Shown piece by piece: positions 35,915-63,473 of a stretch of DNA of 64,000 nt. Source of the DNA: Cryomorphaceae bacterium 1068 (lineage in GTDB: Bacteria; Bacteroidota; Bacteroidia; Flavobacteriales_D; Cryomorphaceae). Both the position numbers and the translations under genes were made by a program. The DNA is taken from contig JAPVXR010000002.1 of assembly GCA_027214385.1 (NCBI GenBank), positions 434,001 to 498,000 of the forward strand. Direction: 5' to 3'. The notes beneath the pieces are model-generated. The model saw only the letters and a list, made by a program, of their open reading frames with translations, searched no databases and was not told where the DNA came from. The first letter of the stretch is position 1; every line of letters starts with the position of its first letter.

Positions 35915-37036
35915 ATGCATCGAAAAAGACACTTCATCTTCTTTCTATTCGCTTTGTGCTCCTCATTTCTGTTTGCACAGGAAGATGACAGTCAGCCAAT
36001 GTCATGCATGAATGCACAGGAAATTCTGTTTCCACTTGGGCAGAATGACTTTTCCAAAAGCGAAATACTGATGAACGAAGCCACCATAAATGCGCTTTAC
36101 TATCTCTATGAGGATCGCTACACTTTCTGGTATAAATTTATCGCTACCGAAGATCTTACCATTGACTTCTCTGTGAGTCCAACCAATCAGGACGACCGCT
36201 ATAGAGCGATACTTTTTAAATACGGAGGAAAGGATTTTTGCGACAAGCTGGTCAATGAAAACCTTCAGCCCCAAAGGGTTCAGCGGATACCTATCTTCAG
36301 TGACGATGGCGAGATACTTTACAAAAATACCGTCGAAGCTGCCAAAGGTGATACCTTTTACGTTTCGGTATTGAGTCTCAATGCTGATGATTGTGGTCAC
36401 TACCTCTACATAGAGTCAGCGGAAGAAAAGTTCTCGTTTCATGCTATACATCAGCCTTGTTATGATTTCGACCAACTCAGGCAGCCTGATTTCTCAACTA
36501 AAAAGGAAGTGCAAGAAGATGTGAGCTTAGTCCTTCCTATGGATACTGAAGTTCCGTTTGAGCCAGAACCTGAAGTTGGTTTTTCTGCACTTGAAACCAT
36601 CGAAGTTGAAAGCGAAGACGATGAGTTTATTTCTGTTGGAGACCGTCTGATTTTAAATCAAGTATTCTTTTATAACAATACTTACGCATTCAAACCAGGG
36701 GCTACTGATGAGCTTGATCAGTTGGTAGATTTCTTAGAAATGAATGCTACCGTAGAAGTAGAGATTCAAGGGCACACGGCAAACAATACAGAAGACATTC
36801 GGCCTGACCCCAATTTTAAGGGGCAAGGCAAAGAGTGGAATTTCAAGGGTACTGCATTGAAGCTAAGCGAGCGAAGGGCTGAAGCGGTGATGGAGTACCT
36901 GATCGGTAAGGGTATTTCTAAGAAAAGGTTGATAGCAAAGGGCTATGGCGATAGTCAAAAACGCGTTCCAGATGCCAAGACCTTCGATGAGTTTGAGAAA
37001 AATATGCGGGTAGAAGCCGTCGTGACCAAACAATGA
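35915..37036 (+). CDS. OmpA-family protein heading the polysaccharide operon
   Basis: A 373-residue exported protein starting at the ATG at 35915 with a signal peptide (MHRKRHFIFFLFALCSSFLFAQ). An N-terminal beta domain (YLYEDRYTFWYKF, FDFSVSPTNQDD-like) is followed by an acidic linker and an OmpA C-terminal domain: LNQVFFYNNTYAFKPGATDEL, VEIQGHTANN and RLIAKGYGDSQK. A roughly 25-residue insert with DPNFKGQGKEW interrupts the loop after the GHT motif. It overlaps wza by 4 nt (ATGA), so it is co-translated with the export system and may anchor it to peptidoglycan. Confidence 0.85.
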   Translation: MHRKRHFIFFLFALCSSFLFAQEDDSQPMSCMNAQEILFPLGQNDFSKSEILMNEATINALYYLYEDRYTFWYKFIATEDLTIDFSVSPTNQDDRYRAILFKYGGKDFCDKLVNENLQPQRVQRIPIFSDDGEILYKNTVEAAKGDTFYVSVLSLNADDCGHYLYIESAEEKFSFHAIHQPCYDFDQLRQPDFSTKKEVQEDVSLVLPMDTEVPFEPEPEVGFSALETIEVESEDDEFISVGDRLILNQVFFYNNTYAFKPGATDELDQLVDFLEMNATVEVEIQGHTANNTEDIRPDPNFKGQGKEWNFKGTALKLSERRAEAVMEYLIGKGISKKRLIAKGYGDSQKRVPDAKTFDEFEKNMRVEAVVTKQ

Positions 37037-37782
37037 AAAAGCTATTCTATCTTTCACTTTCTGTCTTTCTATTGGCCTCTTGCGTCTCGCACAAGCAGGT
37101 CACCTATTTCAATGATATCCAAGATCTAGAGACTGGAAAGCTAAATATTCCCGATGCACCGGCTGCCGTTCTTAAAAATGGTGATCTGGTTGAAGTGCAA
37201 ATATCCAGTATTAGTTTAGAAACGAATGCCTACTTCCAGACCGACCAAAGTTCATCTGATGACGGGTTTGGTGGAAATCTTTACCAAATCGATGGTAGCG
37301 GCTCCATTCACCTTCCCTTGGTGGGAAATGTCGAGATTGTAGGCTTATCCAAAGAGGAAGCAAGAGCAGCTATAGAGTCTGCTCTATTGGAATATGTACA
37401 AAAACCCAGCGTCAATCTCCGTATAGCAGATTATAAGATTACGGTACTCGGCGAAGTCAACACTCCGGGTGTATACAAGATACCTACGGCAGAAGCTTCA
37501 GTGCTTGAAGCTCTTGGATATGCCGGTGATTTGACCGTGTATGGCGTGAGGGAGAACGTTCTCCTGATTCGTGACAACGGCATAGAGAAGAGTTTTCACC
37601 GACTGAATTTAAACGATTCGAGCGTTTTGGAAAGTGAGCACTTTTACCTTCAAAATAACGATGTGATTTACGTTCAGCCTACGAAGGGTCTGACATCGAA
37701 AGATGATAACATATACCGGATCTTGCCGCTGGTGATCAGTTCTCTCACATTTGTGGCTGTCATTATTAGCTTGAATCAATAA
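37033..37782 (+). CDS. Wza-like polysaccharide export lipoprotein
   Basis: A 249-residue lipoprotein: signal peptide MKKLFYLSLSVFLLASC with lipidated C17. The polysaccharide export domain follows (VLKNGDLVEVQISSI, YQIDGSGSIHLPLVGNVEIVGLSKEEA), then an SLBB segment (ITVLGEVNTPGVYKIPTAEASVLEALGYAG). A C-terminal hydrophobic helix (ILPLVISSLTFVAVII) is the expected outer-membrane or periplasmic anchor. Known: Wza forms the outer-membrane channel through which capsule or exopolysaccharide leaves the cell. It is followed 2 nt later by the tyrosine kinase gene. Confidence 0.92.
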   Translation: MKKLFYLSLSVFLLASCVSHKQVTYFNDIQDLETGKLNIPDAPAAVLKNGDLVEVQISSISLETNAYFQTDQSSSDDGFGGNLYQIDGSGSIHLPLVGNVEIVGLSKEEARAAIESALLEYVQKPSVNLRIADYKITVLGEVNTPGVYKIPTAEASVLEALGYAGDLTVYGVRENVLLIRDNGIEKSFHRLNLNDSSVLESEHFYLQNNDVIYVQPTKGLTSKDDNIYRILPLVISSLTFVAVIISLNQ

Positions 37783-37784
37783 GT

Positions 37785-40196
37785 ATGGCAGCAGATAATT
37801 TGAATAAGCCCGAAAGAATACAGAATGATTTCGATTTAAAATCTTTCTTTTTCAGGTATCTCAAGTACTGGTTCTGGTTTCCCCTATGCTTGATTCTGGC
37901 CTTGGTCATCGCGCGCTACTACAATTGGTACAAGAATCCGGTGTATGCCGTTACCGCGAAGTTGATGGTCAAAGATGAAAATGTTGGGAAGGATCAATTT
38001 CTGCGGCAACTAGACGTGGAAACACCGACCAAGAACATCGAGAACGAGATTGAAATACTTCGTTCGCATAGCCTTTTGGCAAAGACCTTGAATGAGTTGG
38101 AATTTGATGTTTCTTATTTCTTAGTCGGAGACGTAAAGGTTTCGGAAGCTTACAAGGACAGCCCTTTCAAAGTGGACATTACAGGACTGGAATATTCAGC
38201 ATACGGCAGACTTTTTGAAATTGAAATAATCGATAAAAATAGATTTCGATTTACCTATCCGCAAGGCGATGGTGAAAAGGTAATCGAAGAGAAATTCGGG
38301 GAGTCATTCGATTTTGGCTTGGGTACCATTACACTAATCAAAAGAGAGATTTTTCCTTCGGACGATCTGAAGAATCCGGAGTTTGATAAGCGTCATTACA
38401 GAATCAAGTTCAACACAATAACCGCCAATCAAAACAAGTATCTATCGAAGCTTTCTGTAGCATTGGCGCGCTCTCAGAGCACTATTCTTCAACTTTATCT
38501 CGAAGATGAGGTCCCACAAAAGGGATTGGATTTCTTGAATGCCTTGATTACCGTCTATCTTCAAAACGATGTAGATTTAAAGAATAAGGCTGCATCAAGA
38601 ACAGCCGAATTCCTCGATCTGCAGCTTGAAGATATTACCGAAGATTTAGAAAGCATCGAAATCAATCGCGAGAACTATAAAGCCGCTAAGGGAATTATAG
38701 ACTTGGAGTCTGAGTCGCAAATCGTGCTGGAGAGCATCAAAGATTTAGATGCCAAAAGTGCCATCAATCAAACCAAAATCGGTTTAATTCAGCAACTAAG
38801 AGAGTACATTACTGACAATGTGGATGTTCGAGACCTAGCCCCCTCGGCGCTGGATATAAATGATCCATTGCTGGTGAAGCTGATCAACAAACTGAGCGAA
38901 CTTCAAAGTCAGCGGGAGATTGTCATCAATCGCAGTACGGTAAATGATCCCAACCTGGTTCCCATCAATGCCGAAATAGAGCTCACCCGCTCATCTCTTC
39001 TGGAGAACATTCGAAACATTGAGAAGGGTCTGCAACGTCAGCAAGAAGAGCTGGAATCTTCCCTAAAAACATTTACCAAGAGAATTCAACGAATTCCAAC
39101 TACAGAGCGGGAGCTCTTGGAGATTGAACGCCGATTCAGAATTCAAGAAAGCTTATACTTATTTCTTTTACAGAAAAGAGCAGAATTGGCCATATCTCTG
39201 GCCGCTACTGATAGCGATACGAGAGTTGTTGATGCCCCTCGAGTAATTCCAGGGCCAATATCGCCTGTACCTCAGCGCGCCTATTCCATTGCCATTTTAC
39301 TCGGCTTAATGATTCCTGTTCTTATTATTTTTTTGGTCGAAAACTTAAACGATAAGATCAATGATTTGGCCGGTCTGAAGCGACTGACATCTATTCCGAT
39401 TATAGGAGTGGTCAGATTTAATCAGCACAAATCTCCTCTCGTAGCTTTAGAAAAACCACGCTCGAGTATTTCAGAAGAGTACAGAAGCATCAGGTCAAAT
39501 CTCAAATTCTTTCATGCTGAAAAAGGTCCTGACGTGGTCATGGTTACCTCCTCGATTGGTACTGAAGGAAAGACCTTTACGGCTATGAATTTGGCCTCCA
39601 TTATGGCCGCCACAGGTTCTAAGGTGGTTCTCATCGGGCTTGATCTGCGCAAGCCAAGAATAGTGGAAGACTTTGGTATTGAGAATAAAATTGGCTGCAG
39701 TAATTACTTAAGTGGAAATGCATCAATCGACGATATTTTAGTTCCTTCGGGCTATTCTGAGAATTTGTTCATCGCGCCCTCCGGCCCGCCACCACCAAAT
39801 CCATCTGAGCTGATTATATCAGATCGTATGCCACACCTCATTAAAGAATTGAGTGAGCGGTTTGATAAGATTATTATCGATACTCCTCCCGTAGGATTGG
39901 TTTCAGACGGATTGCAAATCAGCGATTATGCGAATGTAACGGTCTTTGTGGTCCGCGAAGGGGTTACGCGAAAAGCTCATTTGGCTCAAGCCAATGAAAT
40001 GTTTGAGAAGGGCCGATTGAAGCACCCAACTCTCGTTTTCAATGCAGCTAAACGCAAGAATAAATCATATTCCTACGGTGGGGCCTATGGTTACGGTTAT
40101 GGCTACGGCTACCAAAGCGATTACGGCAACTATTTTGACGAGCAGGAAGAGAGTGACTCCAAGTCAAAGTGGAATCCATTCCGTCGCAATGATTAA
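37785..40196 (+). CDS. Wzc-like polysaccharide co-polymerase and tyrosine autokinase
   Basis: An 803-residue inner-membrane protein. It has an N-terminal Wzz domain (first membrane helix near residue 30, second near 500, coiled-coil region with repeated LESIEINREN-type heptads between) and a C-terminal BY-kinase domain. Walker A is TSSIGTEGKT (K596, T597), A-prime is VVLIGLDLRKPR and Walker B is KIIIDTPPVGLV. The end is a tyrosine-rich cluster (SYGGAYGYGYGYGYQSDY) for autophosphorylation. Known: Wzc controls polymer length and export by cycling of its phosphotyrosines. It overlaps the flippase gene by 8 nt. Confidence 0.94.
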   Translation: MAADNLNKPERIQNDFDLKSFFFRYLKYWFWFPLCLILALVIARYYNWYKNPVYAVTAKLMVKDENVGKDQFLRQLDVETPTKNIENEIEILRSHSLLAKTLNELEFDVSYFLVGDVKVSEAYKDSPFKVDITGLEYSAYGRLFEIEIIDKNRFRFTYPQGDGEKVIEEKFGESFDFGLGTITLIKREIFPSDDLKNPEFDKRHYRIKFNTITANQNKYLSKLSVALARSQSTILQLYLEDEVPQKGLDFLNALITVYLQNDVDLKNKAASRTAEFLDLQLEDITEDLESIEINRENYKAAKGIIDLESESQIVLESIKDLDAKSAINQTKIGLIQQLREYITDNVDVRDLAPSALDINDPLLVKLINKLSELQSQREIVINRSTVNDPNLVPINAEIELTRSSLLENIRNIEKGLQRQQEELESSLKTFTKRIQRIPTTERELLEIERRFRIQESLYLFLLQKRAELAISLAATDSDTRVVDAPRVIPGPISPVPQRAYSIAILLGLMIPVLIIFLVENLNDKINDLAGLKRLTSIPIIGVVRFNQHKSPLVALEKPRSSISEEYRSIRSNLKFFHAEKGPDVVMVTSSIGTEGKTFTAMNLASIMAATGSKVVLIGLDLRKPRIVEDFGIENKIGCSNYLSGNASIDDILVPSGYSENLFIAPSGPPPPNPSELIISDRMPHLIKELSERFDKIIIDTPPVGLVSDGLQISDYANVTVFVVREGVTRKAHLAQANEMFEKGRLKHPTLVFNAAKRKNKSYSYGGAYGYGYGYGYQSDYGNYFDEQEESDSKSKWNPFRRND

Positions 40197-41547
40197 TGGG
40201 CTAATCGCTCGAATACGGTCTACTTCTGATTTTAGAGGTAAGCAAATTCTCAAAAATATTTTGTGGTCAGCAGGTCTGAAAGGAGTAAATGCCTTGATCA
40301 GCTTTATAATCGTTCCGCTCTACCTAAGCCTGCTTACCGAGCTGAGTTTTGGGATTTGGCTTACGGTTAGCGCAGTTTTGCAGTGGTTCAATTTCTTCGA
40401 CTTGGGTATAGGAAACGGCTTGAGAAACAAGCTTGCCGAAGCACTAGCTCAAAAGGATTATAAGCTGGGAAAGATATATGTCAGCACAACATATGCCTTA
40501 ATATCGGGTGTTGCCGTTGGTATGTTCATCTTATTTTTTGGTGCTAATTTCTTTTTTGATTGGGCGCAGGTTTTTGAAGCTCCGCCAGCTCTTGTTAATG
40601 ATGTTAGGGGAATGGTCATTATTCTCTTTTGCCTTTTCGTTCCTCAGTTTGTCGCTCAATTGATCAAGATGGTTGTTACCGCCGATCAGCGACCCGCCTT
40701 GTCCAATCTAATGAACACTTTGGTCAACATCCTCCAGTTGGCAGGTGTATTTTTATTGAGCGAATACAGTATGGGCTCACTAGTAAATTTGGCATGGGTC
40801 ATCGCAGGTATCAATCTGTTCATTCCGCTGGTAGCGAGTGCCTATCTTTTTTCGAGCCGTTACAAGGAATTGAGCCCTTCTTTTTCTCACGTCGACCTCA
40901 AGTATTCCAATTCACTTCTGGGTCTGGGAGCTACGTTCTTTATTCTTCAAGGCGCGGCCCTAGTGGTTTTCATGACCGATAATCTGATTATTACCAAAGT
41001 ACTCGGTCCCGAGGAAGTTCCTGCCTACAATATTTCTTATCGTTACTTCAATCTCGCTCTTGTCTTTTTTGGCTTGGTTACCACTCCGTTCTGGTCGGCA
41101 TTTACCGATGCCTTTGTAAAGGAGGATTTCGGATGGATTAAAAAAATGCTCAAGCGATTGCTCTTTCTCTGGGTAGTGATGGCGGTTGGAGTTGTTCTAT
41201 TGATCCTGATAGCTCCTTATGTCTACCATTTTTGGATTGGTGATGAGTTGGAAATTCCATCTGCCCTCAACTGGTGTATGGGAGCATGGGTAATCCTCTC
41301 AGCACTACTCAGCATTTTCGGCACTTTTTTAAGTGGAATTGGAAAATTGAAAGTCTCCCTTTTTCACGCCGTCTTTGTGATGATTGTTAATATTCCGCTC
41401 TCCATCTGGTTGGCTCAGTACTCCATGCTGGGCAGTGCAGGAGTAATTCTCGCAAGCACGATTGGCGCCTCGTTCCGATTGTTATTTCAACCCTATCAAA
41501 CTTGGCTCATTTTGCAAAAACGAGCCAAAGGAATCTGGAACCGCTAG
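40189..41547 (+). CDS. Wzx-type polysaccharide flippase
   Basis: A 452-residue membrane protein with about 12 to 14 hydrophobic helices. The MATE/Wzx family pattern is visible: ILKNILWSAGLKGVNALISFIIVPLYLSLL and FGIWLTVSAVLQWFNFFDLGIGNGLRNKL at the N-terminus. It would flip lipid-linked repeat units to the periplasm for polymerisation. I start at the ATG at 40189; the longer open frame into the kinase tail is an artefact of the alternate reading of the repetitive Tyr/Gly codons. The stop overlaps the convergent sulfotransferase by 4 nt. Confidence 0.9.
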   Translation: MINGLIARIRSTSDFRGKQILKNILWSAGLKGVNALISFIIVPLYLSLLTELSFGIWLTVSAVLQWFNFFDLGIGNGLRNKLAEALAQKDYKLGKIYVSTTYALISGVAVGMFILFFGANFFFDWAQVFEAPPALVNDVRGMVIILFCLFVPQFVAQLIKMVVTADQRPALSNLMNTLVNILQLAGVFLLSEYSMGSLVNLAWVIAGINLFIPLVASAYLFSSRYKELSPSFSHVDLKYSNSLLGLGATFFILQGAALVVFMTDNLIITKVLGPEEVPAYNISYRYFNLALVFFGLVTTPFWSAFTDAFVKEDFGWIKKMLKRLLFLWVVMAVGVVLLILIAPYVYHFWIGDELEIPSALNWCMGAWVILSALLSIFGTFLSGIGKLKVSLFHAVFVMIVNIPLSIWLAQYSMLGSAGVILASTIGASFRLLFQPYQTWLILQKRAKGIWNR

Positions 41548-42473
41548 ATTTCGTTCAAGTAGTTTTTAGCGAAATTCTCTGAACCATACGTATCAGGAAG
41601 AAGCTCTTTAAGAGACTCGTTATCCGTTCGGAAGTGATCTTTAATTTTTTTCCGAAGTGCAGGAGAAAACTGAAATTTTTTCTTGCCACCCAATCGGTGC
41701 TCAATCGCTTGAATATTCTTTCTGAAAATCTGCTTCCCTGCCCCCGATCTTTCCAAGATTCCTTTTAGGCTATTGGTCTTGCGCAGATACTCCAATTGAC
41801 GAGCGCTTAGGCTGCTGTTCGTCTTTTTGTCAAAATCGATGTCCACAGTCAATTCAAGATTTAGCTCGCGGCAAAATTGCTCAATGAAATCGCTGGGATT
41901 TGTGGTGAAATCCTCGTAGAGAAAAACATGAACTTTCTCAAAGAGTCCCTGATATAGGCTCAAGAGTGAGGAGTAGAAATACTGCTCAGTTTGTTCTATT
42001 GAAGTAAAAGTCGGAAAAAGTGGGTTCGATCGATCAGAACGCTCGTTATCAAAGCGAATGAATTCGTGTGGTTTCGCTGTGTGCCCGGAGTAAACGCCGA
42101 TGGAATACAGTGACTCCAAAAGGTCAGCCTGATTGCGCAGAAACAAAATAATCTCTGCATTCGGGAAAAGTTGTTTCAGACGCATTCCATTTCGCGTCCT
42201 ATTGGTCGAAACCAGATAGAGCGATTGACCTGCAAGAAGTTCGTTAGAGATTATCAAATTACCTTTGTCCTGCAGTGCTGCGCTCTCTCGAACAGACTGT
42301 TCATTGTAGCGACTTTCATCTTGGTACATCAATCGCTGAAAAGCCTCGCTGTATTGTGTTTGGTTTATGCCAATGTGTTTGAAGTTGTTTAAATTGGGAA
42401 AAACCTCCTTCTGAAAAAAGGTGCTTGCCGTTCGCGGCATTCCTATGTGTACAAGTGTTCGATTCACGTTCAA
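41544..42473 (-). CDS. Sulfotransferase-like protein
   Basis: A 309-residue cytoplasmic protein with the PAPS-binding pattern of sulfotransferases. The 5'-phosphosulfate loop is HIGMPRTASTFFQ (residues 9-21, with P13-R14-T15 and S17-T18), and the 3'-phosphate binding segment is FLRNQADLLES with R113 and S121. Known: carbohydrate sulfotransferases use PAPS to put sulfate on sugars; in capsule clusters they give sulfated polysaccharides. It is on the minus strand inside an otherwise plus-strand locus, which may indicate separate control or later insertion. Confidence 0.85.
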   Translation of the reverse strand: MNVNRTLVHIGMPRTASTFFQKEVFPNLNNFKHIGINQTQYSEAFQRLMYQDESRYNEQSVRESAALQDKGNLIISNELLAGQSLYLVSTNRTRNGMRLKQLFPNAEIILFLRNQADLLESLYSIGVYSGHTAKPHEFIRFDNERSDRSNPLFPTFTSIEQTEQYFYSSLLSLYQGLFEKVHVFLYEDFTTNPSDFIEQFCRELNLELTVDIDFDKKTNSSLSARQLEYLRKTNSLKGILERSGAGKQIFRKNIQAIEHRLGGKKKFQFSPALRKKIKDHFRTDNESLKELLPDTYGSENFAKNYLNEI

Positions 42474-45156: not shown

Positions 45157-45713
45157 CACGATTCTTTGAATACCTGCTTTACTTTCGCTACCGCTTCAAT
45201 GGCTGGCTTGTAAGCATCTACCTCGGTGCGCTCGGATGTAAGGTGGGCAAAGGTCTGAAGTGTTTGAGGCTTCCCTCCTTCAAGGACATCCCGAAAGGGA
45301 ATATCCGTATTGGCGATAATGTATCTGTGGGCAAGGGAGTGATTTTTGAAATCGCGAGAACAGGCTCACTCAATATTGGTGAACGCTGCACGTTGGGAGA
45401 TTATAGTCGGTATTCTTCCATCGACGAGATTTCTATCGGCAAGGCTGTTGCTATAGCAGAGCATGTCAGCATTCGCGGAAGCTTTCATAAAACGGATCGC
45501 GATCAAAATATTATTGATCAGGGAGATGAAGGCGCGCCGATCTCTATTGGTAATGACGTTTTACTCGGTGCTCAGACTGTTGTATTGATGGGAGTTAGTA
45601 TTCCCGATGGAGTCGTTATCGGCTCTCAATCTTTGGTTCGTAAAAGCGATAAAGTCCATCCTTATGGTATTTTTGCGGGCTCACCGCTGAATCATATTCG
45701 CGATCGCCGATGA
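45153..45713 (+). CDS. Left-handed beta-helix acyltransferase (LbH)
   Basis: A 186-residue hexapeptide-repeat protein. Repeated [I/V]-G-x-x-x-x units are seen (IGDNVSVGKGVIFE, LNIGERCTLGDYS, ISIGKAVAIAEHVSIRG, ISIGNDVLLGAQTVVLMGVSIPDGVVIGSQS), with an H at the expected catalytic spot in SFHKTDRD. Known: such enzymes acetylate sugars using acetyl-CoA. TTG start at 45153 with a TTGA overlap; a first helix with hydrophobic residues lies before the repeat. In the locus it probably O- or N-acetylates a repeat-unit sugar. Confidence 0.87.
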   Translation: MTRFFEYLLYFRYRFNGWLVSIYLGALGCKVGKGLKCLRLPSFKDIPKGNIRIGDNVSVGKGVIFEIARTGSLNIGERCTLGDYSRYSSIDEISIGKAVAIAEHVSIRGSFHKTDRDQNIIDQGDEGAPISIGNDVLLGAQTVVLMGVSIPDGVVIGSQSLVRKSDKVHPYGIFAGSPLNHIRDRR

Positions 45714-46435
45714 AAACCAATGAAGTAAAAGCTTTTTTTGAGCGCACCGATGTGTACCTCACTTATAATTACAACCTCCGCATTCGAGCGGAAACGGTGG
45801 CGCATTTTATCGGTGACGAGCATTTCGATCAAGTATTGGACATGCCGTGCGGTACAGGAGATATCTCTGCGCCTTTTCTCGAGAATTTCGGACACATCAC
45901 CATGATGGATTTTTCCGAAAATATGATCGCTACATCTAAGTCGCGAATTCCCGATGAGGCAAAATCGAAAGTCACTTTCATCAACGGCGATTTTTACGCC
46001 CACGATTTTGGAGTGCAGCAATTCGACTTGGTGATGAACATCGGTATCTTGGCCCATATCGCCGATCCGATGCGCTTTCTCGAAGAATCGATGAAATTGG
46101 TGAAGCCGGGTGGGAGTCTCATTCTTCAAAATACCGATAGTGATCATTGGTTCGCTAAGCTAATCCATTCTTATCTCGGATTGCGCAGAGCCATCGGGAA
46201 GGACAAGTACAAATTGAACAAGGTTTCCGAAAAAGATCTTTTGAAAAAAGTGACTGGAAATGGTTTCCATTTGCAGCAGAGCTTCCGCTACAATCAGTCA
46301 TTCTTGGGGCTATCCAGACTTTTTAGCAACGACTTGAAGTATAAGCTCACCCGCGACTATTTCGGCGATGCAGCCACGCCTCGAAACCAGAAGGCGGGTA
46401 GTGATGTGACGTACTTGTTCAGTAAGGAGTCGTAA
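45710..46435 (+). CDS. Class I SAM-dependent methyltransferase
   Basis: A 241-residue Rossmann methyltransferase. Motif I is VLDMPCGTGDIS, followed by ITMMDFSENMI and DLVMNIGILAHIAD and PGGSLILQNTDS. The acceptor is not defined; a methylated sugar or a lipid or polyprenyl intermediate is likely because it lies in the polysaccharide operon (ATGA overlap with the acyltransferase, 3 nt to the next glycosyltransferase). Confidence 0.85.
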   Translation: MKTNEVKAFFERTDVYLTYNYNLRIRAETVAHFIGDEHFDQVLDMPCGTGDISAPFLENFGHITMMDFSENMIATSKSRIPDEAKSKVTFINGDFYAHDFGVQQFDLVMNIGILAHIADPMRFLEESMKLVKPGGSLILQNTDSDHWFAKLIHSYLGLRRAIGKDKYKLNKVSEKDLLKKVTGNGFHLQQSFRYNQSFLGLSRLFSNDLKYKLTRDYFGDAATPRNQKAGSDVTYLFSKES

Positions 46436-51394: not shown

Positions 51395-52666
51395 ATGACG
51401 TTTCGGGAATGGACAGAATGGCTGCGCGATTTACCTTGGTTACTCAGGTGGTTTCCACTTTTGGTGGTGCTGCGCCCACTTGTCGATAGCCTTTACTTTC
51501 TCAAGGAAGTCAGTCCGCTCGCCTCACCCCCTTACCTCGTTGGGGTGATTACTCCTATTTTGGCCATTGCGGCTATGGTTAAATTTCGCTCGCCGCCTTT
51601 TGGCAAAGTCGATAAGGCATTTTTGCACTGGTCGATCATCGTCCTGCTCAATTGCTTTTTTCTACTGCTTTACGATCCGCTTTCCATTCTTACCATCGAG
51701 TTTCTGCTCAAACTTTCCTTGCCCGTTTACCTTTTCTTTTTTCTGAGAATATTCATTCGTGATCTCAGAGACTTGCATGGAATTCTTCAATCCTTCCTTT
51801 ATGCGGGGATTTTTATCGTGGCGATCTTACTTTTTGAAGTTTTGGTGAATCCCATTCGAATAGAAGAGAGTCGCGGACTGCAAAGAATTCAGGGGAGCTT
51901 CGGTGATGTGGTCAGTTATGGGATGTATATCACCTTTGCCATTTCGGCGGCCACTTATTTTTTCTTCTCTAGAAATCACGTTGTAGCTCAAAACAAGCGA
52001 TTGATTCTAGTGGGTGTCGTGGCATTTTTCGGCATTCTCGGGTTGGTGAATATTCACCACACCGCCACGTATACGGTGTTTTTCCTAATCACTGCTTTGT
52101 TCTTGCTTTTCAATTTCAGGAAAGGGAGCCCCGCTTTGGGTTTTGCTATGATCGTTATCGTCGGAATCGGGATTTCTTATTTCGGTAGCAGCATAGTAGA
52201 TGAAAAGATTACACCTTTGATCGAAACAGATTTGGCAGTATATTCCGGTGATGAAGACACAGATCGACTGCTTCACGGAAGGGTCGGACGCTGGAGGGTG
52301 ATGCTAGAAAAGTTTTCTTCGGAAAACGTCCCTGTTCAATTCTTCGGTTATCCACTCAAGTTCGATTATGTCTTCCAGTTTATCGGGATTGGTTCACACA
52401 ACGATTTCATTCGAATGCTCTTCGCCACGGGGATTTTGGGTCTGATTTTATACGTCCGTATGCTCGTCGTAGTTTTTCGAAGAAATATCTTGCTCGGCCC
52501 CGCACAGCGCTTCCTGCTTTACGCTACTTTTGCTGCGTTGCTGTTTTATAGTATCAGCGTTACGCCTACATTTTACGCCCCATTCATGTATTTCACTATG
52601 GCTGTATTTGCTTATGCAGCCCTCCCCGAAAACCTACGCTTAAGATGGAAAAACCAAGAATTCTAA
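51395..52666 (+). CDS. Wzy-like O-antigen ligase/polymerase membrane protein
   Basis: A 423-residue protein with about 10 to 12 hydrophobic helices and a large periplasmic loop near 280-350 (RLLHGRVGRWRVMLEKF, GSHNDFIRMLFATGILG). The GSHNDFIRMLFATG motif resembles the conserved region of the O-antigen ligase/Wzy superfamily. It would polymerise flipped repeat units in the periplasm. A ligase role is the alternative. It lies between the TA element and a GT4 gene and overlaps it by 22 nt. Confidence 0.82.
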   Translation: MTFREWTEWLRDLPWLLRWFPLLVVLRPLVDSLYFLKEVSPLASPPYLVGVITPILAIAAMVKFRSPPFGKVDKAFLHWSIIVLLNCFFLLLYDPLSILTIEFLLKLSLPVYLFFFLRIFIRDLRDLHGILQSFLYAGIFIVAILLFEVLVNPIRIEESRGLQRIQGSFGDVVSYGMYITFAISAATYFFFSRNHVVAQNKRLILVGVVAFFGILGLVNIHHTATYTVFFLITALFLLFNFRKGSPALGFAMIVIVGIGISYFGSSIVDEKITPLIETDLAVYSGDEDTDRLLHGRVGRWRVMLEKFSSENVPVQFFGYPLKFDYVFQFIGIGSHNDFIRMLFATGILGLILYVRMLVVVFRRNILLGPAQRFLLYATFAALLFYSISVTPTFYAPFMYFTMAVFAYAALPENLRLRWKNQEF

Positions 52667-56320: not shown

Positions 56321-58489
56321 TTGGATCAACTGCTTCAAAGTCTTAAAAAGGGCGATATGGAAATCGCCACCTTGCCTAACCCCATTCCCGGAAAGGGAGA
56401 AGTGTTGGTGAGAACTGCCTTCTCGGCAATCAGCACTGGTACCGAAGGCAAAACGGTGAGCGATGCCCGCAAGGGCTACGTGGCCAAGGCAAAGTCCCGC
56501 AAGGAAGAAGTGGCCAAGGTGGTCAAAGCCGCTCAAACTTACGGCGTGGCCGAGACTTATAAGTTGGTGATGAACAAGCTCGAGTCACTCCAACCCTTGG
56601 GCTATTCCCTTTCGGGAGAAGTCGTTGCGGTGGGAGAAGGCGTTTCCGAATTTAAGCCAGGCGACAAAGCGGCCTGTGGCGGTGCCTCAGCTTCTCACGC
56701 CGAACTGGTGGCAGTTCCAAAAAACCTTTGCGTAAAGCTTCATCCCGAGACTAAACTCGATCAAGCTGCTTTCACCACCATCGCTGCCATTGCCATGCAG
56801 GGCATTCGTCGGGCCGACTTGAAATTGGGTGAAAATTGTGTTGTTGTCGGATTGGGATTGATCGGTCAATTGACCATTCGCCTGCTGAAGGCAGCGGGAG
56901 TCAAGACTTTCGGGATTGATCTGAAAGATCAACTCGTTGATTTGGCAATGCAATCGGGTGCTCAAGAAGCTTCTCTGCGTAGCGATGAATTAATCGAAGA
57001 GCGCATCAAGAAATTTTCCAACGGAAACGGTGTAGACGCCGTGATCATTACCGCAGCTACTTCTTCAACCGACCCCGTGGAACTGGCTGGAGAAATTTGC
57101 CGTACCCACGGTAAAGTGGTCATCGTGGGAGCCGTACCCACGGGCTTCAGCAGAAAGAACTACTACCGCAAGGAGTTGGAACTTTTGATGAGCACCTCAT
57201 ACGGTCCCGGGCGTTACGATGCCAATTACGAGGAGAAAGGATTGGACTATCCGATAGGTCAAGTCCGTTGGACGGAAAACCGAAACATGCAAGCCTTTGC
57301 CGATTTGCTGGGTTCAGGCGCGCTCGATATTTCAGATTTAATTTCCCATAAGTTCCCTTTCGCTGAAGCCAAAAGGGCATTCGATTTAATCGTCGATGGT
57401 GCTGAGTCGAAAATGGGTGTCTTGCTCGAATACGACACTTCGAAAGAGATCAAACTCGAGCAGAAAGTAGCATCAGAAAAAGCGCCGCTGCAAGCGGATT
57501 CTGTTTCCTTTATCGGAGCTGGATCTTTTGCAGGGAACTTCTTACTTCCCAATTTGAAAGGTAGAATCAAGTTTTCGGCGGTGGCGACGAAGCGACCACA
57601 TTCGGCTGAGAATACTAAAAGAAAATATGCCTTTGATCAGGCTTTCGCCGATGCCGATGCGCTGATTCAAAACGACAAGGCCGGTGGAGTATTCATCGCC
57701 ACCAGGCACGATACACATGCATCGCTTACGCTGAAATCGCTAAAGCAAGGGAAACGCGTTTTTGTCGAGAAGCCGCTTTGTCTTCATCCTCAAGAGCTGA
57801 CAGAAATTAAAGAAGTCGCCCGATCGAATTCGCATTCAGATGTGATGGTGGGCTTTAACCGCCGCTTCGCTCCGTCTGTCATCGAATTGAAAAAGAAGCT
57901 TTCGCTCGAACTGCCGAAGGTGATTCAGTACCGCGTGAATGCGGGTTTCCAGACCGATGATCACTGGGTGCACGATCCCGAGGTGGGTGGTGGCCGTATT
58001 TTAGGCGAAGCATGTCATTTCGTGGATCTTTGTTATTTCTTGGCAGGAGCCAAAGCCGTTTCCGTTTCGGCGGTGCCGATGACGGCCGAGCCGCAGAACT
58101 TTGATTCATTTACTGCCAACTTGGCTTTTGCCGATGGTTCTGTGGCTAGTTTGGTCTACTTGAGCAATGGCAATAAGGCCATGCCAAAGGAACACATCGA
58201 AGTATCAACCGGTGGTTTCTCGGTTCAAATTGATGATTTTAAAAAGGTGACCTATTTTGGAAAAGCTGTTGCTAAAACAAAACCCGCCAAGCAAGACAAG
58301 GGTCATGCCACCGAAATGGAGTTGGTAGCCGATGCTTTGAAAAAGGGAAAACCTTTTCCCATTGCCATGGATGAAGTCTTTCATTCGACGCTGGTCACTT
58401 TTGCACTCAGGGAATCGGTTCGACAGAACGGTAAGAAGATAGAGATTGAAGAATTTGAACGCGAATGGATTTCTCCCAAAGTGAACTGA
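56321..58489 (+). CDS. Bi-domain oxidoreductase: MDR dehydrogenase fused to Gfo/Idh/MocA
   Basis: A 722-residue fusion. The N-terminal part (about 1-370) is a zinc-type alcohol dehydrogenase (MDR): LGYSLSGEVVAVGEGVSEFKPGD and the Rossmann VVVGLGLIGQL. The usual GHE catalytic-zinc motif is not seen (HAELVAV instead). The C-terminal part (about 390-720) is a Gfo/Idh/MocA oxidoreductase: VSFIGAGSFAGNFLL, VFVEKPLCLHPQEL and GGGRILGEACHFVDLCYFL. Known: this fusion recurs in polysaccharide loci together with the two following genes, and its substrate is not well established. Start is TTG at 56321, near a -7 box; no better ATG. Confidence 0.87.
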   Translation: MDQLLQSLKKGDMEIATLPNPIPGKGEVLVRTAFSAISTGTEGKTVSDARKGYVAKAKSRKEEVAKVVKAAQTYGVAETYKLVMNKLESLQPLGYSLSGEVVAVGEGVSEFKPGDKAACGGASASHAELVAVPKNLCVKLHPETKLDQAAFTTIAAIAMQGIRRADLKLGENCVVVGLGLIGQLTIRLLKAAGVKTFGIDLKDQLVDLAMQSGAQEASLRSDELIEERIKKFSNGNGVDAVIITAATSSTDPVELAGEICRTHGKVVIVGAVPTGFSRKNYYRKELELLMSTSYGPGRYDANYEEKGLDYPIGQVRWTENRNMQAFADLLGSGALDISDLISHKFPFAEAKRAFDLIVDGAESKMGVLLEYDTSKEIKLEQKVASEKAPLQADSVSFIGAGSFAGNFLLPNLKGRIKFSAVATKRPHSAENTKRKYAFDQAFADADALIQNDKAGGVFIATRHDTHASLTLKSLKQGKRVFVEKPLCLHPQELTEIKEVARSNSHSDVMVGFNRRFAPSVIELKKKLSLELPKVIQYRVNAGFQTDDHWVHDPEVGGGRILGEACHFVDLCYFLAGAKAVSVSAVPMTAEPQNFDSFTANLAFADGSVASLVYLSNGNKAMPKEHIEVSTGGFSVQIDDFKKVTYFGKAVAKTKPAKQDKGHATEMELVADALKKGKPFPIAMDEVFHSTLVTFALRESVRQNGKKIEIEEFEREWISPKVN

Positions 58490-60819: not shown

Positions 60820-61872
60820 ATGGAGGAAGTTGCAGGTGCACAGAAAGTTGTAGAAGGCATAGCGGGTAGCAGGCTCTTGAGTTTTGTAGCTCCTGTTCTC
60901 GAAAATCGAGAAGGAAAAACTGAAGTCGTTAAGGTCTCTGATCACTTTAACGTGGAGAAGCATGCAGATCAGAGTCTGGATGGATTCATGAACCTTCATC
61001 GCGTGAATGACATTCAGGGGATCAACCGATTTTTCAAGTTGGTGAATCAAAAGCTGAAGTCAGGTGGTAGTTTCATCGGTTGTGTAGAAACACTGGAGCA
61101 AAGGCGTGAAAGATTGTTTCGCAAGTTTCCGCCCGTGATTAATGTCGGGTACTACGGATCGGATTTTATTTTTAAACGTGTTTTCCCGAAATTCAAGTTC
61201 ACAAAAAAATTCTATTTCTTCCTGACGGGCGGACGGAACCGAGCTTTGTCCAAATCTGAGGTTCTGGGTCGCTTGGTCTATTGTGGTTTTCAAATCGAAA
61301 AGACGGAAGAAATTGATGGGAAGCTCTACTTCAAGGTGAGGAAAGTTTCTGAACCATTGGCGGAAGTTGAACCCAGCACGGGTTTGCTCCTACGCATTAA
61401 GAGAATCGGTTATAAGAATCAGCCGATTACCGTTTACAAATTCAGAACAATGCACCCTTACGCTCAGTACATTCAAGCTTATGTCTTTGAGCAGAATAAT
61501 TTACAAGAAGGCGGAAAATTTGCTGATGATTTCCGAATTACCAAATGGGGCAGATGGATGCGGAAATTCTGGATTGACGAAATTCCAATGATCTACAATA
61601 TCCTGCGCGGTGATCTGAAGCTGGTAGGTGTCCGTCCGTTAAGCGAGCATTACTTGAGCCTTTATTCGGCTGAGCACAAAGTTCTACGTGTGAAAGGTAA
61701 GCCTGGATTGATTCCGCCTTTTTATGCTGATATGCCAAATACGCTGGATGAGATTATGGAGTCTGAATCGCGCTACATGGAAGCATATTTTCAAGATCCC
61801 ATTTCTACTGATTTTAATGTTTGCCTGAAGGCCTTCTCTAATATTCTGCTGAAAAAAGCGCGAAGCCATTGA
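60820..61872 (+). CDS. Sugar transferase (PglC/WcaJ type) without membrane helix, fused to methyltransferase-like domain
   Basis: A 350-residue protein in two parts. The N-terminal part (about 1-175) has the look of the later half of a class I methyltransferase: FMNLHRVNDIQGINRFFKLVNQKLKSGG and SKSEVLGRLVYCGFQIEKTEEIDGKLYFKVRK. No GxGxG is visible, so SAM binding is probably lost. The C-terminal part (from about 190) is the bacterial sugar-transferase core: YKFRTM at 206-211, the catalytic D253-E254 of WIDEIPMIYNIL, and GVRPLSEHY. The reentrant hydrophobic helix that normally precedes KFRTM is missing. It would start repeat-unit synthesis by transferring a phosphosugar to undecaprenyl phosphate; how it reaches the membrane is unclear. 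Confidence 0.82.
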   Translation: MEEVAGAQKVVEGIAGSRLLSFVAPVLENREGKTEVVKVSDHFNVEKHADQSLDGFMNLHRVNDIQGINRFFKLVNQKLKSGGSFIGCVETLEQRRERLFRKFPPVINVGYYGSDFIFKRVFPKFKFTKKFYFFLTGGRNRALSKSEVLGRLVYCGFQIEKTEEIDGKLYFKVRKVSEPLAEVEPSTGLLLRIKRIGYKNQPITVYKFRTMHPYAQYIQAYVFEQNNLQEGGKFADDFRITKWGRWMRKFWIDEIPMIYNILRGDLKLVGVRPLSEHYLSLYSAEHKVLRVKGKPGLIPPFYADMPNTLDEIMESESRYMEAYFQDPISTDFNVCLKAFSNILLKKARSH

Positions 61873-63473
61873 TGGCAAGAATTACCCTATTCTTTCTTTT
61901 ATTATTGACGGTTCAAGTCGCTTCGGCTCAAACCGTTTATGAGCCTTACGGCAATTCGGTTTATCGATTCCTTGATGAAATGGCCGCTGCTGGACATATT
62001 TCCGTCAATACTTTTGCCAAGCCCTTTTCACGAAAGCAAATTGCCGAATTCCTGGAAGAGATTGAGGGACAAAAAGAGGATTTAACACAAAGACAAATTG
62101 ACCAGCTCGAATTTTTTCTTCGAGATTACGGTAAGGAATTGCGAGTGGGAAAGGACTGGGATCGTCGACGCGATCTTTTCTTTTACAGTGATTCTGTTTT
62201 TGAACTTACAGTCAATCCAATTTTGGGTGGCTCGGTGATGGTGAACGAGAATGGAAATAGAATTTGGCGAAGAATAGGTGGTGAATTTTTTGCGTCAGCG
62301 GGAAACTTCGGATTTTACGGTTCGATTAGAGACAACAATGTTTCCGAAGTACTTGCTGCACCTCAGTATTTGACCACCAGGCAAGGCGAAAATTACAAGT
62401 CGATTTCTGCCGAGAACAGAAGTGACTTCAACGAGGCTATCGGTGGAATTTCCTACCACTGGAAATGGGGCGATTTAGCGGTGATGAAGGATCGGCTCAC
62501 TTGGGGGAATACCGTTCGTAATGCAAATGTGTTTTCCGGAAAGGCTCCTTCTTATGCCATGATCAATTACCGACTTTATCCCACAGATTGGCTGGAGTTT
62601 CAATACATCCATGGATGGTTAGTGTCCGAGGAGCTGGATAGTGCGCGTACCTACTTGACCCCAAATGGGAACAGGAAGATCTATATGAACAAGAACATCG
62701 CGGCGAACTACTTGACCATTAAGTCTAAATGGGATATTGACTTCACTTTTGGGAATTCGATCGTTTACAGCGATAATGGTTTGAATCCGGTTTATTTCAT
62801 TCCTTTTATGTTCTTTAAGTCCGTGGACCATACGTATTCGGGAACGGGTAGTAACGAGCTCGGGCAAAATGCACAATTGTTTTTCGATGTAAGTGCTCGA
62901 GCGATTAAAAACCTCCATTTGTACGCGTCACTTTTTGTAGATGAAGTGAGCCTGAGCAATATGTGGGATTCAGATAATCAAACCAATATCATGAGTCTTA
63001 AATTAGGTGGAACATGGTTTAATGCGCTACCCAATGTTCACCTGAGCACCGAATACACACGCACCAACCCCTGGACGTATCGCCATCAGATCGAGTCTAC
63101 CACTTTTGCTTCCAATCAATACAATATGGGTCATTATCTGGGAGAGAATGCCGATGAAATCTATGGAGCTATCGAATACATTCCGATGAAGAATCTTCGC
63201 TTTAAGGCTGGCTTATGGCATGTTCGAAAAGGCGAACCGCACGTATACGAAATCATCAATGGCAATGCGAATGTGACGGGGCTGGAGTTTTTAGAAACAG
63301 TTGATTGGAGTCAAACGGGAGCTAGTTTTTCAGTAGAGTGGGAGGTGATCAATGGAGCGGTCGTGTTTCTCGAATTACTCTATTTAGATTCTGAAGGAAA
63401 CGAGACATATACTCCCGAGTTTCTTTCGGGTCAGGTCATTTCCGCCGAGGGAGGCTTTCGAATCGGTTTTTGA
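61872..63473 (+). CDS. Wzi-type capsule assembly outer-membrane protein
   Basis: A 533-residue beta-barrel protein with a signal peptide (MARITLFFLLLLTVQVASAQ) starting at ATG 61872, which shares its A with the upstream TGA. The front has a helical lobe (FLDEMAAAGHISVNTFAKPFSRKQIAEFLEEI), and the remainder alternates strands with aromatic belts (YHWKWGDLAVMKDRLTWGN, YRLYPTDWLEFQYIHGWLV, LGGTWFNALPNVHLSTEYTRT). Known: Wzi is an outer-membrane lectin that fixes capsule to the cell surface, so a capsule rather than only free slime is likely. Confidence 0.87.
   Translation: MARITLFFLLLLTVQVASAQTVYEPYGNSVYRFLDEMAAAGHISVNTFAKPFSRKQIAEFLEEIEGQKEDLTQRQIDQLEFFLRDYGKELRVGKDWDRRRDLFFYSDSVFELTVNPILGGSVMVNENGNRIWRRIGGEFFASAGNFGFYGSIRDNNVSEVLAAPQYLTTRQGENYKSISAENRSDFNEAIGGISYHWKWGDLAVMKDRLTWGNTVRNANVFSGKAPSYAMINYRLYPTDWLEFQYIHGWLVSEELDSARTYLTPNGNRKIYMNKNIAANYLTIKSKWDIDFTFGNSIVYSDNGLNPVYFIPFMFFKSVDHTYSGTGSNELGQNAQLFFDVSARAIKNLHLYASLFVDEVSLSNMWDSDNQTNIMSLKLGGTWFNALPNVHLSTEYTRTNPWTYRHQIESTTFASNQYNMGHYLGENADEIYGAIEYIPMKNLRFKAGLWHVRKGEPHVYEIINGNANVTGLEFLETVDWSQTGASFSVEWEVINGAVVFLELLYLDSEGNETYTPEFLSGQVISAEGGFRIGF

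Follow-up and report, generated by a model that had tools for sequence, protein, structure and literature searches.

The monotopic phosphoglycosyl transferases (monoPGTs) comprise small enzymes such as PglC of Campylobacter concisus (PDB 8e37/8g1n), large ones such as WbaP/WcaJ (PDB 8t53) and bifunctional ones such as the Neisseria PglB. All members of the superfamily are stated to have a reentrant membrane helix (RMH), which in PglC spans residues 1-36, and the PglC residues Arg88 and Arg145 are tied to UndP binding (PMC10519829). The RMH is reported to be essential for PglC: the K7A variant is inactive, the lipid site collapses in simulations of an RMH mutant, and a salt bridge between Asp169 and Lys7 of the RMH is needed for activity (PMC6133551). 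Here we describe a protein, termed PGTx, that combines an RMH-less phosphoglycosyl transferase with a methyltransferase remnant and is encoded in a polysaccharide locus of the 64-kb window, by which we mean the whole stretch of DNA that was analyzed.

Domain architecture and active site of PGTx

The PGTx gene (60820..61872, + strand) starts with ATG and encodes a protein of 350 aa, its coordinates and strand being as originally predicted. The sole Pfam family detected in it is PF02397 (Bac_transf), which matches residues 188-342 with profile positions 34-177 of 179 (E 8e-24) and, scoring 84.6 bits where 27 are required, places PGTx in the superfamily by profile. As this match begins at position 34, profile positions 1-33 are left unmatched; in the genome's other two PF02397 genes the match spans profile positions 1-178. 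The NCBIfam PGT models (WcaJ, WbaP, EPS_sugtrans and others) cover the same region of PGTx only, without reaching their curated cut-off (best 90.8 vs 295.55 bits). The highest 19-residue Kyte-Doolittle mean in PGTx is 1.24, near the N-terminus, compared with 2.58 and 3.35 at the RMHs of the genome's other two PF02397 products. This profile coverage together with the low hydrophobicity indicates that PGTx has the core and lacks the RMH. An assembly or start-codon artefact is ruled out, as relatives of 350 aa share the start site and the open frame extends no more than 6 residues further upstream. PGTx is no broken gene: the same two-domain protein recurs across the phylum and the class.

An AlphaFold model of PGTx built on 48 aligned rows has a mean pLDDT of 90.2 and a pTM of 0.84; 36 of these rows are canonical or viral cores trimmed to ~20 residues ahead of the K-F/L-R-S/T-M motif, so that no RMH could have come from them into the model. 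An earlier model from 12 rows had a mean pLDDT of 68 with an uncertain core, and the secondary structure of residues 1-180 is nearly identical in both. The catalytic core (residues 184-346, 61369..61857, +) displays the PglC/WbaP fold of the monoPGT superfamily: VIA-align superposes PGTx 186-346 on PglC 38-183 (Z 14.2, 139 aligned, rmsd 3.0, 27% identity) and PGTx 184-344 on WbaP 308-471 (Z 14.8, 122 aligned, rmsd 2.9), and Foldseek recovers PglC with E 4e-9. Given the extent of the RMH in PglC, a match starting at residue 38 begins directly behind it. The original prediction had held that the usual reentrant helix is missing and had proposed a model and a hydrophobicity plot as checks; such a helix is seen in neither. 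By profile, hydrophobicity and model alike, PGTx lacks the RMH attributed to all superfamily members in PMC10519829, which makes it a homologue and a derived branch, outside any definition that demands an RMH.

To compare active sites we used 60 family sequences (75 reads were collected and 59 kept together with the window's own, those dropped being second or truncated reads from neighborhood loci L081 onward and L050) and 57 canonical rows (64 before duplicates were removed). The entire family retains its catalytic dyad as well as the basic residues of the active site, with R195, K207, R209, D237, R239, R248, D253, E254, R272 and P273 each present in 60/60 members, where only the columns of the regular expressions used to pick the set (GxRPxS and PGxxPP) are biased and the catalytic ones are not. 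The prediction that the catalytic core is kept thus holds for K207FRTM (61438..61452, +; K207 also in 57/57 canonical rows), for the D253-E254 catalytic dyad (61576..61581, +; canonical D 56/57, E 57/57) and for G270VRPLSEHY; R248, R272 and P273 each occur in 57/57 canonical rows, which were picked by KFR[ST]M, DE and GPRP and are therefore fixed in those columns. Beside this shared site the subfamily bears marks of its own: position 251 carries W or F in 60/60 members as against W/Y/F in 1/57 canonical rows, position 257 is M in 57/60 as against Q in 55/57, and position 267 is K in 57/60 as against S in 52/57. Further marks, to be read with the above selection of columns in mind, are V271 (56/60, as against P in 57/57) and S275 (60/60) in G270VRPLS (61627..61644, +; canonical GPRP), and L297IPPFY (61708..61725, +; P299 59/60, P300 60/60), which takes the place of the canonical I-T-G-L/W-x-Q before the NGR loop (canonical T298 55/57). 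R248 aligns with PglC Arg88; Arg145 has no counterpart in PGTx, and the genome's own canonical PGTs are also without it. D331 (57/60) aligns with PglC Asp169 by our count, and its retention without an RMH suggests, by way of a guess from sequence, that something else now pairs with it, perhaps within the methyltransferase remnant.

The methyltransferase remnant and possible membrane association

The methyltransferase-like remnant that had been proposed ahead of the core is real at the level of fold: in VIA-align comparisons residues 5-178 (60832..61353, +) adopt a class I SAM-methyltransferase fold that is shortened and lacks motif I. PGTx 17-178 aligns with the methyltransferase 3cc8 at Z 13.0 (132 aligned, rmsd 4.2), the top score among matches to many methyltransferases, and this upstream domain has the overall fold of the class, with five strands in the model in place of the seven of the full fold. 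A motif-I-like sequence (GxGxG-type SAM loop) is found in the N-terminal part of 0/60 family members, and SAM binding by the remnant is therefore unexpected. The relative L017 weakly matches positions 31-94 only of the 95 in Methyltransf_11 (E 0.07), and Methyltransf_23 is matched in 1/12 subfamily members (E 1e-4). We considered and rejected a live methyltransferase as the N-terminal domain, an intact one being encoded separately at 45710-46435. Between strand 79-89 and the final strand pair of the methyltransferase fold (157-165 and 168-175) the model has helices at 105-124 and 126-136 with a break at 125. This helix-break-helix (residues 105-136, 61132..61227, +), defined from secondary structure and column counts, is aromatic, basic and conserved (R120 59/60, K124 58/60, Y132 58/60, D115 53/60), and we regard it as a candidate membrane-contact element.

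An RMH-like segment is absent from the subfamily bodies, as 0/60 are at or above a hydrophobicity of 1.6 (top 1.44), and only 6/64 canonical-type reads lie below this value, all of them viral-contig sequences. The window form of PGTx has neither an RMH nor a membrane bundle. Long forms, open frames of 648-684 aa that account for 8/29 match rows of the phylum survey, carry a membrane bundle immediately ahead of the same two domains, with eight hydrophobic peaks each in L024 and L029 and four in L058. Judged from their sequences these relatives look like integral membrane proteins, on which ground we argue that the reaction would take place at the membrane. A separate membrane protein of the long-form type as substitute for the RMH was rejected, as the bundles are unmatched in the window and in short-form neighborhoods.

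Stand-alone RMH-less PGT cores of about 164-168 aa occur on viral contigs (L121 (= L051) 1501-2004, L122 1501-1992 and L123 1501-1992; also L125 and L153). They have the canonical DELPQ and GPRP motifs, fall outside the window subfamily in the tree, and would be a further, separate case of an RMH-free PGT. A transketolase-like gene lies directly after the core in L051 and L122 (by Pfam in L122). Scans of viral contigs with the window alignment or with the genome's WcaJ-like protein recovered no relatives.

Phyletic spread and gene neighborhood

A search for the same fusion in other Bacteroidota, which the original prediction had recommended, recovered PGTx in 26/395 sampled phylum genomes (leaving out the canonical G050, 27th in the table, and counting G336, a contig-end piece of the core), in 59/395 sampled class genomes, and in 12/60 nearest-relative genomes, including all 8 of the window's own family. 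Eleven full-length relatives in named genomes, at 38-85% identity, come from Flavobacteriales and Cryomorpha through Ignavibacteriales, Rhodothermaceae and Prevotella; a relative on a Spirosoma plasmid is annotated as sugar transferase only. In a tree built by a quick method from 26 of the 60 PGTx and the 57 canonical cores, the subfamily is monophyletic, set apart from the canonical cores by a branch of 100% SH-aLRT support. PGTx is thus a stable RMH-free subfamily of monotopic PGTs in the phylum, beyond one oddity. The branch is widespread and apparently undescribed: we found no description of it, or of this fusion, in the monoPGT literature that we covered, a scope beyond which lies the superfamily's main sequence-network paper (PNAS 2021), which may list the fusion. 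Two subfamily members (L037 and L038) are preceded by a transposase-type helix-turn-helix stretch, matched by HTH_Tnp_1 with E 3e-4 in L037, and one locus (L109; G651:C7, about 574-578 kb) has the RMH-less PGT in two tandem copies ~3 kb apart.

The window locus is of the Wzx/Wzy type. Domain matches identify a Wza-type export protein (Poly_export, 37033..37782, +), a Wzc-type chain-length protein (Wzz, GNVR and AAA_31, 37785..40196, +) and a Wzx-type flippase (MatE and Polysacc_synt, 40042..41547, +), and a protein with 9 hydrophobic peaks and a Wzy_C match below cut-off (51395..52666, +) is the candidate Wzy-type polymerase. Several glycosyltransferases, two asparagine synthase-like proteins and a two-domain oxidoreductase are also found around PGTx. 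A zinc-type alcohol dehydrogenase fused to a GFO/IDH/MocA oxidoreductase is encoded at 56321-58489 in the window and recurs at 50-54% in several PGTx loci. The locus further includes a sulfotransferase-like gene (41544-42473, -), which hints at a sulfated polysaccharide product.

Upstream of PGTx lies a DUF354-like protein (PF04007, 59685..60740, +), a conserved neighbor and candidate partner that we take to have a GT-B-type fold; comparison with solved structures gave nothing useful, and it has no hydrophobic peak. Downstream is another conserved neighbor, an outer-membrane-type protein (61869..63473, +), which has no Pfam match and is presumably Wzi-like. The DUF354-like gene occurs near PGTx in 15/20 and 9/11 neighborhoods (31 in total), often directly upstream. 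Linkage within ~10 kb is found for PGTx in 14/20 genomes and for the canonical PGT in 0/20 of the same genomes, taking one canonical locus per genome and the query from the window. PGTx directly adjoins Wza and Wzc in several other neighborhoods.

The claim that no other initiating transferase lies in the locus is upheld, as a search of the 64-kb window for PF02397 and PF00953 found PGTx alone; the nearest such gene on the contig is a PF00953 gene ~170 kb away. The genome at large has two full canonical monoPGTs, C11 (PglC-like, in a separate glycan locus) and C1 (WcaJ-like, an orphan), and three PF00953 proteins. A second intact initiating transferase serving this locus, named in the original prediction as what would refute it, is hence missing from the locus itself, and any of these five proteins could in principle serve it from elsewhere.

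Aberrant relatives of other kinds were also encountered. Four proteins of 660-719 aa (L181, L182, L183 and L184, from G124, G188, G184 and G211) consist, by domain names assigned by eye, of a GT2 domain, membrane helices, a Rossmann-type domain, an RMH and a PGT end that has lost both KFRTM and the DE dyad; each is adjoined by an intact large PGT, and from sequence they are likely dead PGTs fused to a glycosyltransferase. A small PGT of a Prolixibacteraceae genome (L015:2057-2740) has Asn replacing the catalytic Asp (KINELPQ).

Functional interpretation

We propose, with confidence evenly divided, that PGTx begins each repeat unit of the polysaccharide made by this Wzx/Wzy-type locus, docking peripherally through its decayed methyltransferase domain. 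The catalysis, acceptor, docking surface and order of steps that we infer would be as follows. D253 would attack the UDP-sugar with release of UMP, hold the phosphosugar covalently and pass it to undecaprenyl phosphate. The decayed methyltransferase domain would assume the job of the lost RMH, anchoring PGTx at the membrane and walling the lipid site on one side, with docking most likely via the aromatic and basic helix-break-helix 105-136 and the interfacial helix of the core (W243-W251), helped in some relatives by the added 4- or 8-helix membrane bundle; the next sugar may come from the DUF354-like neighbor. An amphipathic surface and a partner protein, the two routes to the membrane offered in the original prediction, are both plausible ways of docking. 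This reading is supported by the kept active site with its Arg88 equivalent, by the standing of PGTx as sole PGT of its locus, by the linkage to the DUF354-like gene and by the relatives with membrane bundles. Against it count the requirement for the RMH reported in PglC, the lack of an Arg145 counterpart, the canonical PGTs that carrier genomes also encode, and the absence from the short form of any hydrophobic stretch from which attachment to a membrane would be predicted. The wider generalization, that there is a whole branch of initiating PGTs without an RMH in which a dead methyltransferase supplies the lipid-site wall and a membrane-contact surface, so that the RMH can be substituted and a peripheral protein can carry out the monoPGT reaction, appears to us possible though on the doubtful side of even.

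As two ordinary monoPGTs lie elsewhere in the genome, we infer the initiating role rather than observe it, and PGTx might instead be an active phosphosugar transferase that is no initiator. C1, C11 or a PF00953 protein would then prime undecaprenyl phosphate, and PGTx would give sugar-1-phosphate to another acceptor, for example a lipid-linked glycan hydroxyl; a different acceptor would explain why no RMH is needed. The supply of alternative initiators in this genome, two monoPGTs and three PF00953 proteins, fits this, as does the replacement of the PglC Arg145 stretch by a fixed LIPPFYADMP. Moreover, a full canonical PGT is present elsewhere in 64/65 carrier genomes, and the remaining one, G119, at first a candidate for having PGTx without any canonical PGT, carries a fragment of one at a contig end, so that no genome shows PGTx working alone. 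However, the canonical PGT lies within ~30 kb of PGTx in just three carriers (G188, G143 and G108) and in none of the other 62/65, distances being read by eye among the matches listed and limited by contig ends; PGTx loci also have their own Wza and Wzc, and the equivalent of Arg88 is kept in 60/60 members. We consider this non-initiating role rather unlikely.

A further alternative concerns only how PGTx is kept at the membrane, namely through a partner, which could be the DUF354-like protein, Wzc or Wzx, instead of a surface of its own. The strong linkage to the DUF354-like gene, often the one directly upstream, and the lack of a membrane segment in the short form speak for it. Yet the DUF354-like protein is likewise without a hydrophobic peak, its gene is absent within ~20 kb in 5/20 carriers, and no stand-alone bundle of the long-form type is found near short forms, and we judge docking through a partner improbable to a similar degree. 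Much less probable still is a catalytically dead or regulatory relative retained for scaffolding: the coordinated changes beside the active site (W/F251, M257, K267 and V271) could be so read, but the dyad and basic active-site residues stand in 60/60 members, unlike in the decayed PGT ends of L181-L184.

PGTx is also of wider interest, as the monoPGT literature that we covered takes the RMH to be universal and essential. A conserved phylum-wide branch with a whole active site and no RMH makes the purpose of this helix directly testable, and PGTx, if soluble or peripheral, could ease structural and inhibitor work on PGTs as compared with the detergent-bound enzymes. It also exemplifies how a defunct enzyme domain can find new use within a different enzyme, and in combination with the DUF354-like gene it offers a clear locus mark for finding such polysaccharide clusters in Bacteroidota.

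Comparison with known systems

PGTx probably works like a monoPGT and is homologous to them, and fails the RMH feature used to define them. With the small monoPGT PglC it shares the core fold, the Asp-Glu dyad, KFRTM and the Arg88-, Arg112- and Asp169-type residues (the last being D331). It differs from PglC in having a methyltransferase remnant in front and no RMH, and in showing VRP where PglC has PRP, M in place of Q following the proline that trails the dyad, W in place of S two positions ahead of the dyad, and PPFYADMP in place of the GLAQVNGR stretch. The large monoPGTs WbaP/WcaJ likewise share the core and, with the long-form relatives of PGTx, a 4-helix (or doubled) bundle and a Rossmann-type domain ahead of it; in PGTx, by contrast, the middle domain matches methyltransferases, the RMH between middle domain and core is missing, and the window form is devoid of the bundle. 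Class I SAM-dependent methyltransferases (UbiG 4kdr, YcgJ 1xxl and 1vl5) have in common with PGTx the second two thirds of their fold, and differ from it in their seven strands and their motif I. Finally, bifunctional monoPGTs such as the Neisseria PglB resemble PGTx in the fusion of a PGT core to another domain; these enzymes are reported to keep their RMH, whereas in PGTx the fused domain occupies its place.
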